A stretch of DNA of 64,000 nt, from the NCBI GenBank assembly GCA_020853525.1, contig JADYYS010000055.1, positions 1-64,000 of the forward strand, in the 5' to 3' direction. Origin of the DNA: Ardenticatenales bacterium. GTDB taxonomy: Bacteria; Chloroflexota; Anaerolineae; Epilineales; Epilineaceae. The stretch's first letter is position 1, and each line of letters opens with the position of its first letter. Position numbers and translations under genes: made by a program. The notes beneath the pieces were generated by a model. The model searched no databases. It saw only the letters and a program-made list of their open reading frames with translations, and was not told where the DNA came from. Below are positions 42,639 through 52,923 of this stretch, in pieces.

Positions 42639-43166
42639 TTACTGCTGGTTCGGCGGGTAATCCCACTCGACCATCGCCGCGACGATCTGCTCGACCGTGG
42701 CCGGCGGATCGAACGCGATCGTGACGCGCTTGGCCGCCGGGTCGCCGGTGACGTCGGTGACGCCCGGCACGTCGGCGGTGACGACGCGCTTGATCGTGGC
42801 GACGCAGTGGTCGCAGCTGATGGCGGGGACTTCGAAGGTCACGCTTTCCATCGGGACTTCACTCCTGTGTGGGGCTCGGGTCGCCTGTGCGGGGCTTGTG
42901 TCGGCTGGGAGAATCGGGTCGGCACGGTAGCCGGCTCCGGCGATCGCCGCGGCGATCGCGTCGAGGGTCAGCCGGGTCGGATCGTAGAGGACGGTCGTCG
43001 TGGCGTTGGGGTACGAGGTCGTCGACTCGGCGACGCCGTCGAGCGCCTCGACGGCCCAGTCGACGGACATCGCACAGTTGCCGCAGTGCATGTCGTGGAC
43101 GGTGAAGGCTTGCATGACGTAGCCCGGCGGCGGCTCGGCCGAGCGCTGCTTGAACGAGATCTTCAT
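42639..43166 (-). CDS. two-domain HMA copper chaperone with probable internal start
   Basis: 175 residues with two heavy-metal-associated ferredoxin-like domains: MHCGNC (near residue 28) and ISCDHC (near residue 117). ATG 43166 overlaps the upstream TauE/SafE stop. An internal in-frame ATG at 42851 has AGGAGTGAAGTCCCG before it, so a second product of 70 residues, a CopZ-like single-domain chaperone, may be made as well. It would hand Cu(I) to the ATPases or the permease. Confidence 0.85.
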   Translation of the reverse strand: MKISFKQRSAEPPPGYVMQAFTVHDMHCGNCAMSVDWAVEALDGVAESTTSYPNATTTVLYDPTRLTLDAIAAAIAGAGYRADPILPADTSPAQATRAPHRSEVPMESVTFEVPAISCDHCVATIKRVVTADVPGVTDVTGDPAAKRVTIAFDPPATVEQIVAAMVEWDYPPNQQ

Positions 43167-44317
43167 GGCATCACCTCGATCGAGCCGTAGTACATCCCCA
43201 TGCTGCAGCTGAACGCGATCTCGCCCGGCTCGGCCGCCGGCAGCTCGACGACGGTCTCGCCTGTCTCCGGCAGCATCGCCAGGATGTTGTAGGCCGGGAC
43301 CGTGAAGGCGCGGATGCACCCCTTGGCCCCGTTGGACACGAGCTTGAGCGATGTCGGAATGCCGGCGCGGACCTGCAGCCGCTGCGGCTGGTACGTCGTC
43401 GTGACGTCGATGCGCGCCTCTTGGTGCGCTGCGCTCGGCGCGGACGCCGCGGCGGCCGTGTCTACAGCCGGCGATTCGCCGGCGGGTGCGTCCACAACGG
43501 TGGAGCCGACGGCGGCCGTGTCGCCTGCGGTCACAGGCGCCGCGAGCGGCGCACCCGTGCCTGCGACATCGATGCTCGATCCGCCCGAGCCGGCGAAGGT
43601 GCCGCGCCAACCGAGCAGCCGCAGCCCGGACTGCGCGGACAGGAAGGCGATCGCCAGGACGACGGCGGCCGCCAAAGGCTTGAACACGCGGTGGCTCGCC
43701 CGGCCCAGCCACGCGCCGCCAAGGGCCAGCGCCAGGAACAGCGGCGCCGTGCCGAGGGTGAACGCGCCGAGGACGAGCGCGCCGCGAACGGGCGACTGCG
43801 TTCGCGCAGCCAGGAGTTCGACCGCGAGCGTGACGCTGCACGGGATCAGGACCGTCAGCCCGCCCAGCACCGCCGGCGACCATGCGCCGCCCGCGCGGGC
43901 GCGCTGGCCGATGAACCGCTGGACGGCCTTCGGCGGCCGAGGCGCAAGGCGGCGCAGCGCGGGGTGGACATCGAACATCTGCAGGACGAGCAGCGCCATG
44001 AGCACGCCGACGGCCACAAGGACAAAGCCCTGGAAGCGCGGGCTGAACACCTGGCCGACCCAGCCGAGGACGGCGCCGAGGGCAACGTAGGCGACGGTCT
44101 TCGCCGTCAGGAACTGCACGGCCGGCAGCGCCAGCACCAGCGCCGGCGGGCGATCCTCTTGTCGATCCCCTTGCCGATCCCCCTGCCGCCCCACCGCCTG
44201 CTGCGCGACGGCCGCGACGAGCAGGCCGCCTTGGACGGCAATGCAACTCAAGCCGCCGACCGAGAGGCCGGCCAGAAAGAACAACCAGAGGCTCGAGGAC
44301 CCGTCGAGATCGGGCAT
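43163..44317 (-). CDS. TauE/SafE-family membrane protein with C-terminal cupredoxin-like domain
   Basis: 384 residues. Six membrane helices of the SafE/UreH-type (CcdA-like) family, including GLSVGGLSCIAVQGGLL and LTVLIPCSVTLAVELLA, each with a cysteine that could carry copper. After a Ser/Ala-rich linker, residues 290-384 form a cupredoxin_1-like domain ending FSCSMGMYYGSIEV, with Cys and Met ligands. The combination with HMA and cupredoxin proteins suggests copper transfer across the membrane. First gene of the operon, behind a strong promoter and CsoR-like operator. Confidence 0.87.
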   Translation of the reverse strand: MPDLDGSSSLWLFFLAGLSVGGLSCIAVQGGLLVAAVAQQAVGRQGDRQGDRQEDRPPALVLALPAVQFLTAKTVAYVALGAVLGWVGQVFSPRFQGFVLVAVGVLMALLVLQMFDVHPALRRLAPRPPKAVQRFIGQRARAGGAWSPAVLGGLTVLIPCSVTLAVELLAARTQSPVRGALVLGAFTLGTAPLFLALALGGAWLGRASHRVFKPLAAAVVLAIAFLSAQSGLRLLGWRGTFAGSGGSSIDVAGTGAPLAAPVTAGDTAAVGSTVVDAPAGESPAVDTAAAASAPSAAHQEARIDVTTTYQPQRLQVRAGIPTSLKLVSNGAKGCIRAFTVPAYNILAMLPETGETVVELPAAEPGEIAFSCSMGMYYGSIEVMP

Positions 44318-45497: not shown

Positions 45498-47816
45498 CTA
45501 CCAGCCGCCTTCCGCCCCGTGCGACATGCGGTCGCCGTACACCTCCGGCATCGTCCCGTCCGCCGCCGTCACGTTGAACTGGAACATCATCCCGGTCTCG
45601 AGGTGCTCGGCGATGTGGCAGTGGACCATCCAGGCGCCGGGGTTCGTCACGTCCATCACGAGGTCGACGGTCTCGCCGATCGGCACGAGGACGGTGTCCT
45701 TCCAGACGAGGTCGCGGTTCGGCTGCCCGTTGCGGGCGACGACGACGAAGCGCTGGCCGTGGATGTGGATCGGGTGCTGCATCGGGTGGACGCTGTCGGG
45801 CAGGTTCCGGATCCGGATCTTGACGACGTCGCCGACGGTGAAGCTGTAGACCAGCGCCTCGTTCTCCGCGCCGCTGGCGGCATCGCGCAGCACCCAGCGC
45901 GTTTCGGCCGCCGTCGACTGGCGGTTGGCCGCCAGCATGTCGTCCTCCCACTCCACGCTGTGTCCCGCGTCGCCGTGCCCGTCGTCCGCGACGCCGTGGC
46001 CGTCGTCGACATCCCCGTGGCCATCGTCGACGTCTCTGTGTTCGCCCGCGTCCGACTCGGCGTCCACCATCGTGTCCACCTCGCTGTCGTCGGCAGCGTC
46101 GCCGGCGTCCGATCCCGCGTCTGATCCCGCGTCTGCCGCCGTGAGCAAGCTCGGCATGTCGATGTCGAGTTCGAGCTCGACGTCCGGTGCGGCGAACGCG
46201 AACCCGAGGAATTCACGCATGTCGGTCACGATGTCGGTGTTCACGCGCTCGGCATCGAACGCGCGGCGCGCCGCGGTGTCGAGCGCCGCCTTCGCCGGCG
46301 CCACCGCGACCGTTCCGAGCGCAACCGTGCGATCCGGCGTCTCGTGCACGAGCGTCGCCGTGCCCGCCCGATCGAACAGGACCTCGACGATCGCCCGCTC
46401 GGCCGGGGCGATCAGGACGCGGTCGAGGTAGACCTCCGCGGTGAACTTCCCGAGGTCGCCGCCGACGCGCTTCATCCGTGCGCCGTCGAAGCCGAAGCTG
46501 AACGGCCGGACGTTGGCTGTGTTCACGACGAAGAAGCGCACGACCTCGCCCTGCCGGACGTCGAGCCGGTAGTCGTCGCGGCCGTTGACGAGCATCGTGT
46601 TGCCGAAGCGGCCCATGACGGTGAAGCTGGCCTCGGGACCGCCGAACGGGACGAGCCGGCCGTCCTCGATCAGGAGGTCGTCGAGGACGACGACCTCCTC
46701 GCGGTCGACCGGGTTGAAGTAGTCCGGGTCGGTCGGCGTGACGACGAGGACGCCGTACATCCCGCCGTCCTGCTGGATGTCCTCGCGGACGTGCGGGTGG
46801 TACCAGTAGACGCCCGGATCCGGGAAGGCGAGGGTGTAGGTGTACGAGCCGCCCGGCCGCACGGCCGGCTGCGTCACGCCCGGCACGCCGTCGTCCTTGT
46901 TCGCGTGGCGCAGGCCGTGCCAGTGGACGGTCGTCGGCATGTCGATACGGTTCGTGAAGTCCACCGTCACGCGGCTGCCCTGCGCCACCCGCAGGATCGG
47001 CCCGCCGACCTCGCCGTTGTAGCCGTAGCCCGGGTACGGGCGGCCGCCGATCGTGCGCGTGATGACCGTGGCGGCCATCGCCAGTCGGGCGCCGTCGGTC
47101 AGATCGAGCGTCGTCACCGGCTGCTGCGCCTCGCGGGCGATGCCGGGCACCTGGCTGCCGGGCAGGATCGTCGGCCGGTCGGCCGTCCGCATCGCCGCGT
47201 CGCCGGCCGCCCCGCCGAGTGCACGGATCTCGCCTGCCAGCCGCTGGATGTCCGCCTCGCTGCAGCGGCCCATGATGATCCCGAACATCGCGTGGCACGC
47301 GGCGTCCTTCATCGCGTTCGGGTCGAACGTGATGCCGTCGCCCAGGTCGCGGACACCGCTCGACGACGTCGCACCCGCGCTCGTCGCCGCTGCACCGCCT
47401 GTCGACGCCGCGCCGGCAGCGCCGTCGCCCGCCTTCGGCAGCTCGACGATCCCCTTGCCGCCTTTGGCGCGCACGATGTCCGCCAGGATCGCCAGATCCT
47501 CGTCCGAGCACGTGCCCATGAGCGTCGTGCCCATGCCGTGGCACGGGAAGTCGGCCATCTGGTTCGGGTCGAAGACGATCGGGCCGAGGGCGCCGGCGGC
47601 GGGGGCCACGACGCGGGTGGGGGCGGGGCCGACGGACGCAGCGGGGGTTGCGGGGGTGGCGGAAGCTGCGGGGGCGGCGGTCGGCCGCGACGTGCAGCCA
47701 GCGAGCGCGAGTGTCGCGCACGTCGCCGCCAGCGCACTGGCGGCACGCCAAGTGCGGCGCGGGCGAGTTTCGGGATGCGGGCGATGATCGTCCGGTGCGG
47801 CGGGAAGCAAGGACAT
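45498..47816 (-). CDS. multicopper oxidase with two N-terminal CHM modules
   Basis: 772 residues. Lipoprotein-like signal (ALAGC, Cys41). Two copies of the C-H-x-M-x4-M-G-x-C module (C92-H93-M95-M100-C103 and C174-H175-M177-M182-C185), then a three-domain laccase-type oxidase with all four copper-binding motifs: HWHG, WYHPHV, HPIHIHG and HCHIAEHLETGM. Between domains 2 and 3 is an Asp/His/Gly-rich insertion (DDGHGD repeats) like the metal-rich loops of CueO. Likely a periplasmic or surface Cu(I) oxidase. The start (MSLLPAAPDD) keeps the signal peptide at the N terminus; the ORF extends further upstream. Confidence 0.9.
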   Translation of the reverse strand: MSLLPAAPDDHRPHPETRPRRTWRAASALAATCATLALAGCTSRPTAAPAASATPATPAASVGPAPTRVVAPAAGALGPIVFDPNQMADFPCHGMGTTLMGTCSDEDLAILADIVRAKGGKGIVELPKAGDGAAGAASTGGAAATSAGATSSSGVRDLGDGITFDPNAMKDAACHAMFGIIMGRCSEADIQRLAGEIRALGGAAGDAAMRTADRPTILPGSQVPGIAREAQQPVTTLDLTDGARLAMAATVITRTIGGRPYPGYGYNGEVGGPILRVAQGSRVTVDFTNRIDMPTTVHWHGLRHANKDDGVPGVTQPAVRPGGSYTYTLAFPDPGVYWYHPHVREDIQQDGGMYGVLVVTPTDPDYFNPVDREEVVVLDDLLIEDGRLVPFGGPEASFTVMGRFGNTMLVNGRDDYRLDVRQGEVVRFFVVNTANVRPFSFGFDGARMKRVGGDLGKFTAEVYLDRVLIAPAERAIVEVLFDRAGTATLVHETPDRTVALGTVAVAPAKAALDTAARRAFDAERVNTDIVTDMREFLGFAFAAPDVELELDIDMPSLLTAADAGSDAGSDAGDAADDSEVDTMVDAESDAGEHRDVDDGHGDVDDGHGVADDGHGDAGHSVEWEDDMLAANRQSTAAETRWVLRDAASGAENEALVYSFTVGDVVKIRIRNLPDSVHPMQHPIHIHGQRFVVVARNGQPNRDLVWKDTVLVPIGETVDLVMDVTNPGAWMVHCHIAEHLETGMMFQFNVTAADGTMPEVYGDRMSHGAEGGW

Positions 47817-47891
47817 GAGGGTGTTGGCCTCGCGGCAGTCGTTCCGTCGTTCCGTCCACCGCGATGCGGCGCGGAGCGGCTGGTAGTCGGT

Positions 47892-47921
47892 TTGACCCCT
47901 CCCCCCAGGGGGGGCTATTAA
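47892..47921 (+). promoter_or_regulatory. promoter with CsoR-like operator in the spacer
   Basis: TTGACC (47892-47897) and TATTAA (47916-47921) are 18 bp apart. The spacer holds the GC palindrome CCCCCC-A-GGGGGG (47901-47913) in a longer CCCCTCCCCCCAGGGGGGG site. Repressor binding here would block the promoter of the ATPase at 47993 and might also affect the divergent oxidase gene, for which I see no clear -10/-35. Confidence 0.65.
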
Positions 47922-47992
47922 CACGGCCGAACTCTAGCCAATCGCGGCCGCGACTGTCAACCACACGGCTGCATCCGACGGTGGAGACGACG

Positions 47993-50026
47993 ATGAACGC
48001 TGGGCACGACCCACACGCAGCGCACGCCCATCACGACATGTCCGATCCCCGCTTGGCGGCGACGATGGAAGCCGACATGCGCCGCCGCTTCTGGATCGCC
48101 CTCGCGCTCGGCATCCCGGCCGTGCTCTACACGCCGATGGCCGGCCACATGCTTGGCGTGCGTCTGCCGACGCCCTTTGGAGTGCGCAGCGATTGGATCA
48201 CGCTCCTGTTCGCAACCCCGGTTGCACTCTGGTGCAGCTCGGTGTTCCACATCGGCGCGTGGCGCTCCATCCGCTCGGGCGTCCTGAACATGAGCGTCCT
48301 CGTATCGCTCGGCATCCTCGTCAGCTACGTCTTCAGCCTGGGCCTGACGTTCTTCGCACCCGGGCAGGAGACGTTCTACGAAGCCGCGGTCATGCTGGCC
48401 GTGTTCCTCCTGTTCGGCCACTGGATGGAGATGCGCGCCCGCCGCGGCAGCTCGGACGCCGTGCGCGCGCTCCTCGACCTCGCGCCACAGCAGGCGGTCG
48501 TCGAGCGCGGCGGCCAGCTCGTGACCGTGGCGGTCGACGACGTGGTGGTCGGCGACGTCCTGGTCCTGCGGCCGGGCGACAAGGTGGCCGTCGACGGGGT
48601 CGTCCTCGACGGCGCGACGGCGATCGACGAGTCGATGATCACGGGCGAGTCCCTGCCCGTCGCCAAAGCCACGGGCGACGCGGTGATCGCGGGCACGATC
48701 GGCCAGTCGGGCTCGTTGCGCTACCGCGCGACGAAGGTCGGCGGCGAGACCGCACTGGCACAGATCGTGGCGATGGTCGAGCGCGCGCAGAGTTCGAAGG
48801 CGCCGGCCCAGCGGCTGGCGGATCGGGCGGCACATTACCTCGTGCTGCTGGCCGTCGGCTCGGGCGTGGCCACGTTCGCGGTCTGGTACTTCGTCGCCCG
48901 TGAGCCGCTGCTGCTCGCCCTGACGTTCGCCGTCTCGGCCATCGTCATCGCCTGCCCCGACGCGCTCGGGTTGGCGACGCCGACGGCCGTGATGGTGGCC
49001 ACCGACATGGGCGCCAAGCGCGGTGTCCTGTTCAAGGAGGCGGTGTCGCTCGAGCTGGCGGCCCGTATCCAGGCCGTCATCATCGACAAGACGGGTACGC
49101 TGACCGAGGGCCGGCCGCGGGTGACGGACGTCGTAGCGCTGGATGGAACCTCCGAGGATGAGCTGTTGCGGCTGGAAGCGGCCGCCGAGGTGCGAAGCGG
49201 CCACCCGTTGGCCAAGGCGATCCTCGACGAGGCGGAGCGCCGCGGACTCGCCGTGCCGACCGATGTCGAGGCGTTCGCGTCCATCGCGGGTCTTGGCGTG
49301 CGGGCGATGGTGGGCGGTCGCGACGTTCTGGTGGGCACGCAGCGGCTCCTGGAACAGAACGGTGTTCCCCTGGCTGGCCTGCGCGAAGCGGCGGACCGGC
49401 TCTTGGCGGAGGGCAAGACGCTCATGCTCGTCGCCGTCGATGGGCAGCCCGCCGGCGTCGTCGCTGCCGCCGATCCGATCCGTCCAACGGCGCAGGCTGC
49501 CGTGCATGGCCTGCAGGCCCTCGGCATCGACGTCGTCATGATGACCGGCGACAACCGGCACACGGCCGAGGCGGTCGCCCGCCACGTCGGCATCACGCGC
49601 GTCCTGGCCGAGGTGCTCCCGGCGGACAAGGCCGGCGAGGTCGAGCGACTGCAGGCCGAGGGCACGTTCGTGGCGATGGTCGGCGACGGCGTGAACGACG
49701 CGCCGGCGCTGGCGCAGGCCGACCTCGGCATCGCGATCGGCGCCGGGACGGACGTGGCGGTCGAGGCCGGCGACATCGTCCTGATGCACTCCGACCCGGC
49801 GGACATCCTGATGGCGATTCGACTTTCGAAAGCCACGGTGCGCAAGATGCGCCAGAACCTGTTCTGGGCCGCGATCTACAACGTCGTTGCCATCCCGATC
49901 GCCGCCGGGCTCCTCTACCGCCCGCTCGGGATCCTCCTGCGACCCGAGTTCGGGGCGCTGGCGATGTCGGCGAGCTCGATTACCGTCGTGAGCAATGCGT
50001 TGTTGTTGCGGCGGGCGCGGCTATAG
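47993..50026 (+). CDS. P1B-type ATPase with His-rich N terminus and CPD motif
   Basis: 677 residues. His-rich N terminus (HDPHAAHAHHD) instead of an HMA domain, then an eight-helix core: MITGESLPV, phosphorylation DKTGTLTEG (D365), the SGHPLAKA motif, TGDNRHTAEA and [12 protein letters not shown]. The metal motif in helix 6 is C321-P-D323 (CPDALGLATPT); copper exporters normally have CPC and CopB types CPH. Layout otherwise matches CopB. A GTGGAG precedes ATG 47993. Confidence 0.9.
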   Translation: MNAGHDPHAAHAHHDMSDPRLAATMEADMRRRFWIALALGIPAVLYTPMAGHMLGVRLPTPFGVRSDWITLLFATPVALWCSSVFHIGAWRSIRSGVLNMSVLVSLGILVSYVFSLGLTFFAPGQETFYEAAVMLAVFLLFGHWMEMRARRGSSDAVRALLDLAPQQAVVERGGQLVTVAVDDVVVGDVLVLRPGDKVAVDGVVLDGATAIDESMITGESLPVAKATGDAVIAGTIGQSGSLRYRATKVGGETALAQIVAMVERAQSSKAPAQRLADRAAHYLVLLAVGSGVATFAVWYFVAREPLLLALTFAVSAIVIACPDALGLATPTAVMVATDMGAKRGVLFKEAVSLELAARIQAVIIDKTGTLTEGRPRVTDVVALDGTSEDELLRLEAAAEVRSGHPLAKAILDEAERRGLAVPTDVEAFASIAGLGVRAMVGGRDVLVGTQRLLEQNGVPLAGLREAADRLLAEGKTLMLVAVDGQPAGVVAAADPIRPTAQAAVHGLQALGIDVVMMTGDNRHTAEAVARHVGITRVLAEVLPADKAGEVERLQAEGTFVAMVGDGVNDAPALAQADLGIAIGAGTDVAVEAGDIVLMHSDPADILMAIRLSKATVRKMRQNLFWAAIYNVVAIPIAAGLLYRPLGILLRPEFGALAMSASSITVVSNALLLRRARL

Positions 50027-50061: not shown

Positions 50062-50643
50062 TCACTCGACAACCACCTGATCGAACGCCTCCACGAACTC
50101 GGCCTCGTCGGTCCGCCCGCGCCAGGACTGCACGGTGTTGCCGGCCGCGTCCACGAGGAAGAACTGCGGCTGCCCCCTGAATCCGAGCTGCTCCTTCAGC
50201 GGCGCCGTCGCGTCGTCGTCGATGTCCAGGTAGACGAAGTCGATCCGGCCCTCGTACCGATCCTCGAGCCCGTGCACGACGGGCTTCATGGCTTGGCACG
50301 ACACTCACCAGTGGGCGAAGAACTCGACGAGCTGCGGTCGGCCGGCGGCCAGGGTGACCGCGGCGGGGTCGCTCGGCGTGAAGTCGCGGTTGGGGTCGCG
50401 GGCCGGCTGCGCCTGCTGCTCGGCCGTCGCGGGCTCGGCGGGCGCCGCGATGTCGCCGGCCGTGGGCAGTGCGCTCACGGCGGCGTCGACGGGCGAATCG
50501 GTCGATACCGGAGCCTGCGCGCCGGTGGCCGGTTCATCGGTCGTCGGCGCCGCGGCGGGTGCGCTGCAGCCGACGGCCACGGCCATCGCCAGTACCAGCA
50601 ACCACGGGTGGGGTCGTTGCACGGCAGAACCTCTCTTGTTCAT
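50062..50643 (-). CDS. thioredoxin-like lipoprotein, probable selenoprotein (Sec113)
   Basis: 193 codons read with TGA as selenocysteine. A lipoprotein signal ends AVGC (from MNKRGSAVQ). After a Pro/Ala-rich linker the thioredoxin fold reads QLVEFFAHW, then TGA (50307-50305), then VSCQAMKPVVHGLEDRY; family members have W-C-x-x-C here, so the TGA stands exactly at the first Cys. The downstream half, including VYLDIDDDATAPLKEQLGFRG and PQFFLVDAAGN, is fully conserved, with no other stop or frameshift. A candidate SECIS hairpin follows. Otherwise it would be two broken ORFs, 50305-50643 and 50062-50304. Probably a reductase or chaperone for the copper proteins. Confidence 0.75.
50267..50285 (-). 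promoter_or_regulatory. candidate bacterial SECIS hairpin
   Basis: On the minus strand AGCCCGT and ACGGGCT pair as a 7-bp stem with loop CGTGC. The stem starts 20 nt after the in-frame TGA and the loop is at +27 to +31. Bacterial SECIS elements usually have a small apical loop with a G in the first two positions, about 16-37 nt after the UGA. The hairpin is inside the coding sequence, as expected. Confidence 0.6.
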
Positions 50644-50850: not shown

Positions 50851-52923
50851 CTAGCCGAACCCGCGATCCCGCTTCCCCATCACCGCCCCGTCGGACACCA
50901 ACAGGCGCGAGAGCCGCCGCTTGATCGCCGTCAGCTGATACACACGCTGGTCGAGTTCACGGACACGGACGCTCGTCGGCGCGACTTCGGGTCCATCCGC
51001 GTCGGCTTCGAGCCGCGCTTCGGTCTGCTCGAAGCGCAATGCCTCCAGCTCCTGAACGATGGCCCCTTCGCGCAGTCGGAGGACGAGCCGCCACAGACTC
51101 TGCACGACCGTTGGCTCAGCGGCGGAGGGGCCACTCACCGCGCGCCGCCGCAGCGTGTCGGCCAACCGGGCGTGGGCCTCGGGCAGCGCGTCGAGGCGCT
51201 GCTCGGCCGGGGCATCGGGCGGCGGCGTGCCGTGCGCGGCATAGCGGACGGCTTCGAAGAGGTCGCCCTGCAGCGGATCGAGGAAGTCCTCGCTGCCGAG
51301 TACCGCCTCGTCGACCGCGCGCAGCGCTTCGTTCAGCGCGGCCAGGCGGCTCGGCGCGGCAAGGAGGAAGCCGAGGATGCGGGTGGCGTGGTTGTCGGGC
51401 GGGGCGGCGGGTGGCGGAACGGTGGCGGTCGCCTGCCCGGGGTCCGTCTGGTCGTGCGGCGCATGCCGGCCCTGCGCATCGATGCCGCCGCTGTCGGCGA
51501 CCACAGGAATCGCCGGCGCGGCGCCATCCCCCGTGGCCGCCGGCCCGTCGAACCGGCGCGGCGCGGGCCGGGTGGTCCGCGCGCGGGCCACCTGGCCCAT
51601 CCGCGCCGCCAGCGCCCGCTCGTCCACGCGCAGCTTGTCGGCCAGGCGGGCCATCCAGGCGCTGCGGACGATCGGGTCCGGGATGTCGGCGATGACCGGG
51701 ATGAGGCGCTCGGCGGCGGTCTGCTTGGCGCTCGGGTCGTTCAGGTCCAGGTCGGCGGTCAGCGCATCCAGCAGGTAGCCCAGGACAGGCGCGGCGCCGG
51801 CGATCAGGCTGCGCCAGCCTTCGGGGTCGTCCCGGATCACGTCGTCCGGGTCTTTGCCCGCCGGCAGCACGGCGACGCGCAGGTCGACCTCCAGCGTGCT
51901 GGCGAAGCGGACCGCGCCGCGCGCCGTCGGCACCGGCACGACGTCGCCGGCGGCGGCCTCGCGGATCACGTCGAGGCCGCGCACGGTGGCGGCCTGGCCG
52001 GCGGCGTCGGCGTCCAGCGCCAGGACGATCCGCTTGGCGAAGCGCTTCAGGAGCGCCACGTGGTGCTCCGTCAGTGCGGTGCCGAGGCTGGCGACGACGT
52101 TCGTGAAGCCGGCGGCATGGGCGCGGATCACGTCCGTGTAGCCCTCGACGACGACGGCCTCCTCGGAGTCGCGGATGGTCTGGCGGGCACGGTCGAGGGC
52201 GAAGAGCGTGCGGCCCTTGTCGAAGATCGGCGTCTGCGGGCTGTTCAGGTACTTCGGCTGACTGTCCGCATCCAGCGCCCGCGCGCCGAAGCCCACGGGC
52301 TCGCCGCGGACGTTGTGAATCGGGATGACGACGCGGTTGCGGAAGTAGTCGTAGTGCCCGCCGCCGTCGCGCTCGCGCAGCAGGCCGGCGGCGAGCAGAT
52401 CGTCGTCATGGAATCCCATCGCCCGGAGGTGGTTGCCGGTGGCATCCCAGCTGTCGGGCGCGAAGCCCAGTCGGAAGGACTTGGCGATATCCGTGCCGAA
52501 GCCGCGACCGCTCAGGTAGACGCGGGCCGCCTCGGCCTCGGGCGCGCGCAGGAGGAGGCCGTGCCAGTGCTCGGCCGCCGCCAGGACGGCATCGCGCAGC
52601 CGTTTCGATCGCTCCACCTGGGCCTTGGCTTCCGGCGTCGCCGGCGAGAGGTCGACGCCGACGCGGCGGGCGAGGAACTCGAGCGCGTCGCGAAACGGCA
52701 GGTTCTCGGTGCGCATGATGAAGTCGAACGCATCGCCGCCCGTGCCGCAGGCGCCGAAACAGCGCCACGAGCCGCTCTCCGGGAACACGACGAAGCTGGG
52801 CGTCCGCTCCTGGTGGAACGGGCAGCATGCCTTGAACGTCCGCCCCGCCTTCTTGAGCGGCACGCGCTCGCCGATGAGCTCGACGATGTCGATGCGGGCG
52901 CGGACTTCGTCGACGGGGTTCAT
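50851..52923 (-). CDS. dnaG: DNA primase
   Basis: 690 residues. N-terminal CHC2 zinc finger CPFHQERTPSF ... CFGAC, primase core with FRNRVVIPIHN, TOPRIM motifs VVEGYTDVI and LALDADAAG, and KDPDD. The C-terminal region after about residue 430 is Pro/Ala-rich and then helical, presumably the DnaB-binding part. ATG 52923 lies 6 nt after a TATACT box (52935-52930), so the mRNA is probably leaderless. Divergent from the gene at 53007. Confidence 0.95.
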   Translation of the reverse strand: MNPVDEVRARIDIVELIGERVPLKKAGRTFKACCPFHQERTPSFVVFPESGSWRCFGACGTGGDAFDFIMRTENLPFRDALEFLARRVGVDLSPATPEAKAQVERSKRLRDAVLAAAEHWHGLLLRAPEAEAARVYLSGRGFGTDIAKSFRLGFAPDSWDATGNHLRAMGFHDDDLLAAGLLRERDGGGHYDYFRNRVVIPIHNVRGEPVGFGARALDADSQPKYLNSPQTPIFDKGRTLFALDRARQTIRDSEEAVVVEGYTDVIRAHAAGFTNVVASLGTALTEHHVALLKRFAKRIVLALDADAAGQAATVRGLDVIREAAAGDVVPVPTARGAVRFASTLEVDLRVAVLPAGKDPDDVIRDDPEGWRSLIAGAAPVLGYLLDALTADLDLNDPSAKQTAAERLIPVIADIPDPIVRSAWMARLADKLRVDERALAARMGQVARARTTRPAPRRFDGPAATGDGAAPAIPVVADSGGIDAQGRHAPHDQTDPGQATATVPPPAAPPDNHATRILGFLLAAPSRLAALNEALRAVDEAVLGSEDFLDPLQGDLFEAVRYAAHGTPPPDAPAEQRLDALPEAHARLADTLRRRAVSGPSAAEPTVVQSLWRLVLRLREGAIVQELEALRFEQTEARLEADADGPEVAPTSVRVRELDQRVYQLTAIKRRLSRLLVSDGAVMGKRDRGFG

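Follow-up and report, generated by a model that had tools for sequence, protein, structure and literature searches.

Does an in-frame TGA mark a broken gene, a genuine stop, or a codon read as selenocysteine (Sec)? This question is raised by a short open frame in a 64,000-nucleotide stretch of contig JADYYS010000055.1 from an Ardenticatenales bacterium, referred to here as the window. An earlier note on this DNA had proposed a probable selenoprotein at this locus, and our analysis supports that interpretation: sel genes are present in the genome, relatives carry Sec or Cys at the codon concerned, and a covarying SECIS hairpin follows it. Judged from the sequence, the gene is almost certainly an intact selenoprotein gene in which TGA is read as Sec. 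Recoding rescues as a single gene what standard annotation splits, and it draws attention to a large, Sec/Cys-switching thioredoxin family in the Anaerolineae, bacteria known mainly from metagenomes.

Reading frame, start and fold of the gene

The gene for this predicted Sec-containing, thioredoxin-like lipoprotein occupies 50062..50643 on the minus strand; counted from the ATG at 50643 through the terminal TGA, it has 194 codons. Its frame is open from 50643 to 50062 apart from one in-frame TGA at 50305..50307 (minus strand), and translation with TGA as U yields MNKRGSAVQRPHPWLLVLAMAVAVGC...GRPQLVEFFAHW-U-VSCQAMKPVVHGLED...FDQVVVE, followed by the TGA stop. The coordinates, the codon number (113) and the context FFAHW-TGA-VSCQAMKP given previously are exact, with only the strand, minus, left unstated. 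By translation and homologue alignment, this predicted Sec codon stands where CxxC has its first Cys (U-V-S-C), and the resolving Cys of UxxC is the TGC at 50296..50298 (minus strand), invariant in alignments A1, A2 and A4. The proposal that TGA replaces the first Cys of a thioredoxin motif is accordingly upheld by the reading W-U-V-S-C, by the match to PF00085 and by Cys in relatives. As had also been anticipated, conventional calling (table 11) divides the gene into two ORFs, one of 161 aa ending at the TGA and one of 80 aa beginning with a GTG directly after it. Such a split, and the single base that separates TGA from TGC and from TGT, are what one would expect of a pseudogene, a Cys thioredoxin broken by point mutation or sequencing error; third-position GC speaks against this, as it is 0.93 after the TGA vs. 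0.88 before it and the downstream part stays coding-like.

The true start is probably the GTG at 50622 rather than the ATG at 50643, because in our reading of the sequence AGAGAGG stands 7 nt ahead of the GTG, with AAGAGAGG immediately upstream, and no ribosome-binding site precedes the ATG. A start at GTG 50622 would make the TGA codon 106, not 113.

The product matches Pfam PF00085 over residues 101-186 (49.9 bits vs. a cut-off of 23.5, E = 3.4e-13), and AlphaFold2, with Cys modeled for Sec, predicts a thioredoxin fold with pLDDT of 95-98 over residues 91-190. In this model residue 113 sits just ahead of a helix (114-129), P159 holds the cis-Pro position and is invariant, and the Foldseek matches are thioredoxins, in keeping with a generic thioredoxin fold. 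The NCBIfam model for thioredoxin TrxA (TIGR01068) scores 45.5 bits, far under its cut-off of 96.8, and the protein is therefore described as thioredoxin-like rather than as TrxA; the TlpA model (NF047696) likewise scores only 30.2 bits against a cut-off of 230. There are nine thioredoxin-domain matches in the window's genome, and this gene's match is the only one that contains a TGA.

A Sec-containing bacterial thioredoxin (PF00085, UxxC) has been classed as experimentally verified (PMC13188914). The Sec-thioredoxin is hence already known, and the window gene adds a member. The two share the Pfam domain, Sec in the first position of CxxC and a bSECIS just downstream, but the window protein differs in its lipoprotein-like signal and long Pro/Ala linker. 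It also resembles the Trx-like 1-3 and GOS_C groups of an ocean metagenome survey (PMC2398784) in its thioredoxin fold, UxxC motif, Sec/Cys pairs and SECIS-like hairpin, and, as far as a comparison of descriptions alone can tell, may be one of them; Chloroflexota are unmentioned in that survey and in two reviews.

The TGA codon, its hairpin and the Sec machinery

With alignment A2 as the query, 80 loci were recovered from 84,980 named species genomes, almost every one belonging to Anaerolineae or another lineage of Chloroflexota. The earlier note had suggested aligning homologues to see Cys at codon 113, and the outcome is clear: the aligned codon is TGA in 47 of the 80 loci and Cys in 32, and an unrelated residue appears in just one, where the motif is lost. 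In that single locus (L050, 5001-5264), WDGAS replaces the redox motif and both catalytic residues are gone, with the remaining domain conserved. The gene has a match in 33 of 100 related genomes, with a TGA in most of the best ones; in most of the loci retrieved from them the codon is either TGA, at the first CxxC position, or Cys. Alignments of the relatives show coding conservation on both sides of the TGA, as had been claimed. Searches of viral contigs found no relatives of the gene, and the best matches in plasmid records were ordinary annotated thioredoxins of about 33% identity. Since dozens of independent genomes carry TGA at the same codon, sequencing error is excluded as a general explanation, and the same recurrence with intact flanks counts against a pseudogene.

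Just behind the TGA lies the hairpin reported previously (AGCCCGT/ACGGGCT, 5-nt loop, 20-38 nt after the TGA), whose position is exact. In the mRNA it has a 7-bp stem, AGCCCGU/ACGGGCU, and the loop CGUGC (50267..50285, minus strand; recognized by family covariation and folding), with G at loop position 2 and the first loop nucleotide 26 nt beyond the UGA. The bSECIS model describes a loop of 3-9 nt, a stem of 4-16 bp and a G in the first two loop positions, with the loop 16-37 nt after the UGA (PMC13188914), and the window hairpin agrees with it in loop, stem, G position and distance. Taken by itself the hairpin is marginal (z = -1.35 vs. dinucleotide shuffles; p ~0.06 vs. synonymous shuffles), and the argument therefore rests on the family. 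Here the signal is strong and very uniform: 64 of 65 distinct Sec genes have N-G-U at the loop start, 26-27 nt after the UGA, and their best bSECIS-like hairpins average -8.6 kcal/mol (mean z -2.5 against synonymous shuffles) vs. -1.7 kcal/mol (z -0.2) in 41 Cys genes, where the hairpin is mostly absent. In an alignment of 40 sequences, 97.5% of hairpin cells pair, four of the six pairs change on both sides, and 36 cells are doubly changed vs. 9.4 ± 2.2 in shuffles; none of 500 shuffles equaled this count and slid versions came nowhere near. Unaided, RNAalifold predicts exactly the same hairpin, which answers the folding check proposed earlier, and the identification as a bacterial SECIS is not only right but strengthened by this covariation. 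Synonymous choice tracks the hairpin as well, in that the Gly125 codon is almost always GGG and the Pro codon CCC or CCT in Sec genes, both being variable in Cys genes. Given the weak single-sequence tests, we had at first suspected that GC-rich coding sequence might by itself account for the hairpin, and dropped this after the family-level tests. One Cys form (L111, 5001-5225) still has a SECIS-like hairpin (GCCCGUCGUGCACGGGU) and looks like a recent Sec-to-Cys change. A family with so uniform a SECIS should help annotation, and offers a way to ask why Sec serves outside the cytoplasm.

The machinery for Sec insertion is encoded in the same genome (4.27 Mb, 76 contigs, 97% complete), where a search for selA, selB, selC and selD, the first check that had been advised, found all four: SelB, SelA (461.8 bits), SelD (361.9 bits) and tRNA-Sec (68.3 bits vs. 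a cut-off of 47; called SeC(tca) by ARAGORN). SelD (G000:C30:144400-145326; L010) itself has an in-frame TGA in the context CAG-U-ASK, matching the UxxK site known for Sec-containing SelD (PMC13188914), and the genome thus holds at least one further, textbook, selenoprotein gene. SelB and tRNA-Sec would decode the UGA at 50307-50305 as Sec, directed by the bSECIS hairpin with its GU-containing loop 26 nt downstream.

The association extends across the class. Matches to the thioredoxin gene occur in 147 of 396 genomes; among the matches listed, 105 genomes have a TGA inside the match, counted anywhere within it (the motif position being established for retrieved loci), and 17 have only TGA-free matches. 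Class-wide, 320 of the 396 genomes have SelA. Again among the matches listed, it occurs in 100 of these 105 TGA genomes vs. 7 of the 17 Cys-only genomes, a difference whose Fisher p of 3e-7 is only indicative because related species are not independent. Three of the five TGA-bearing genomes without a SelA match have tRNA-Sec, and the other two (G325 and G314) show neither. With a covarying hairpin tied to TGA genes and this association with SelA added to the evidence, a pseudogene is very improbable. That the TGA is instead a true stop, read through with insertion of Trp, Cys or Arg, or that UGA is reassigned in this organism, is more improbable still. That UGA can be read through is generally known and lends this reading some footing; the same gene, however, ends on TGA as its terminal stop, the genome has the full Sec system and the gene a bSECIS, and relatives have Cys at this codon.

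Probable export, candidate redox partners and the copper question

Being most likely a lipid-anchored, extracytoplasmic UxxC thioredoxin, the selenoprotein would work outside the cytoplasm. Starting at GTG 50622, a probable lipoprotein signal peptide, (M)QRPHPWLLVLAMAVAVGC, covers 50565..50622 (minus strand) in our reading, in which AVAVGC was recognized by eye after a hydrophobic stretch and AVGC fits a lax lipobox; relatives, too, have a Cys after a hydrophobic stretch. The protein would be exported and then lipid-anchored on a Pro/Ala-rich linker. It would act there as a thiol:disulfide reductase, in which the Sec selenolate attacks a disulfide of the substrate and the U-V-S-C cysteine then resolves the intermediate, and the oxidized protein would probably be re-reduced by a membrane carrier of the CcdA/DsbD type. 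A candidate electron donor, we infer, is the nearby product (43163..44317, minus strand) in which a DsbD_2 (CcdA-like) membrane domain (PF13386) is fused to a cupredoxin domain (PF13473); a CcdA/DsbD-type protein with a thioredoxin domain is encoded elsewhere in the genome.

Other neighbors bear on the possible substrate. A P-type (P1B-like) ATPase (47864..50026, plus strand; PF00122, PF00702) is convergent with the thioredoxin gene, their stop codons being 35 bp apart, and a multicopper oxidase (PF07731, PF07732, PF00394) lies at 45498..47924 on the minus strand. The upstream same-strand neighbor is DnaG primase (50851..52923, minus strand; identified by Pfam). The motif in the window ATPase is CPD (ACPDALG), vs. 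the CPC or CPH usual in copper ATPases. In the named loci, a P-type ATPase occurs near the gene in 17 (the single one put through a domain scan has two HMA domains), a TlpA/redoxin-like gene in 9, Lgt in 7 and a CsoR-type metal-sensing repressor (PF02583) in 5, all of them rough counts, as ORFs were picked mechanically. One further neighbor family (family 0) was discarded, as it proved to be the thioredoxin gene's own N-terminal half, cut at the TGA.

The neighbor genes suggest that the protein may keep extracytoplasmic copper-site cysteines reduced, a role to which we give about even odds and in which copper-site proteins would be the best guess for the substrate. We propose it by analogy, because TlpA, a membrane-anchored thioredoxin of Bradyrhizobium, reduces CoxB and the copper chaperone ScoI ahead of their metallation (PMC6696091). 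Both would be anchored extracytoplasmic proteins of thioredoxin fold with a copper-related substrate, the latter being only proposed here, but the window protein falls outside the TlpA family by NCBIfam and is predicted to use Sec. Evenly balanced, in our estimation, is the possibility of a selenoprotein devoted to general extracytoplasmic disulfide reduction or isomerization, or to oxidant defense, and having no link to copper, a reading that competes with the copper role only and leaves the selenoprotein claim untouched. The copper neighborhood is not universal, as copper genes are missing from the surroundings of many relatives, and the generic thioredoxin fold would suit such a function; the ATPase and CsoR-type genes of the named loci point the other way, as do the P-type ATPase, multicopper oxidase and cupredoxin fusion adjoining the window gene itself.

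Relatives with two TGA codons

In 15 sequences of the family (L018/L179, L042, L163-L175) TGA stands at both redox-motif positions, as in WUSTU, NUAPU and WUPTU, and all 15 have a single hairpin, placed after both TGAs; the distance to its loop is ~26 nt from the first UGA and ~17 nt from the second. A tree built from 109 domains after masking of the motif, short and poorly resolved, gives 12 changes among UC, CC and UU vs. a shuffled mean of 39; by its starred branches the double-TGA sequences fall in at least two places, and L163 groups in a pair with L087, a UxxC gene, with 98% support. Sec and Cys have, by this sequence evidence, been swapped for each other several times in the family. It is likely, though well short of the confidence attached to the window gene, that some Anaerolineae thioredoxins are UxxU proteins in which two UGAs, separated by 9 nt, are both decoded by means of a single bSECIS to give a diselenide thioredoxin, with UxxU gained or lost independently at least twice on the tree. 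Two Sec per redox motif are also found in the UxxU Prx-like proteins (PF00578), a MerA-like metal-binding protein and FmdB, families other than that of the thioredoxin relatives (PMC13188914). The same source gives UxxU for other families and the PF00085 thioredoxin as UxxC only; the UxxU form is thus the more novel by-product of this analysis, its absence from PMC13188914 being no proof of novelty. In these relatives nature supplies a test of whether a single hairpin can recode two close UGA codons, and they also bear on what a diselenide does in thioredoxin.

Two minor observations concern individual family members. One UxxU gene (L174) belongs to G325, a one-contig genome, 95% complete, with no SelA or tRNA-Sec match. 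L176 and L177 carry the Sec thioredoxin domain at the end of an open frame that is far longer (552-560 aa) and whose sequence is otherwise unrelated.
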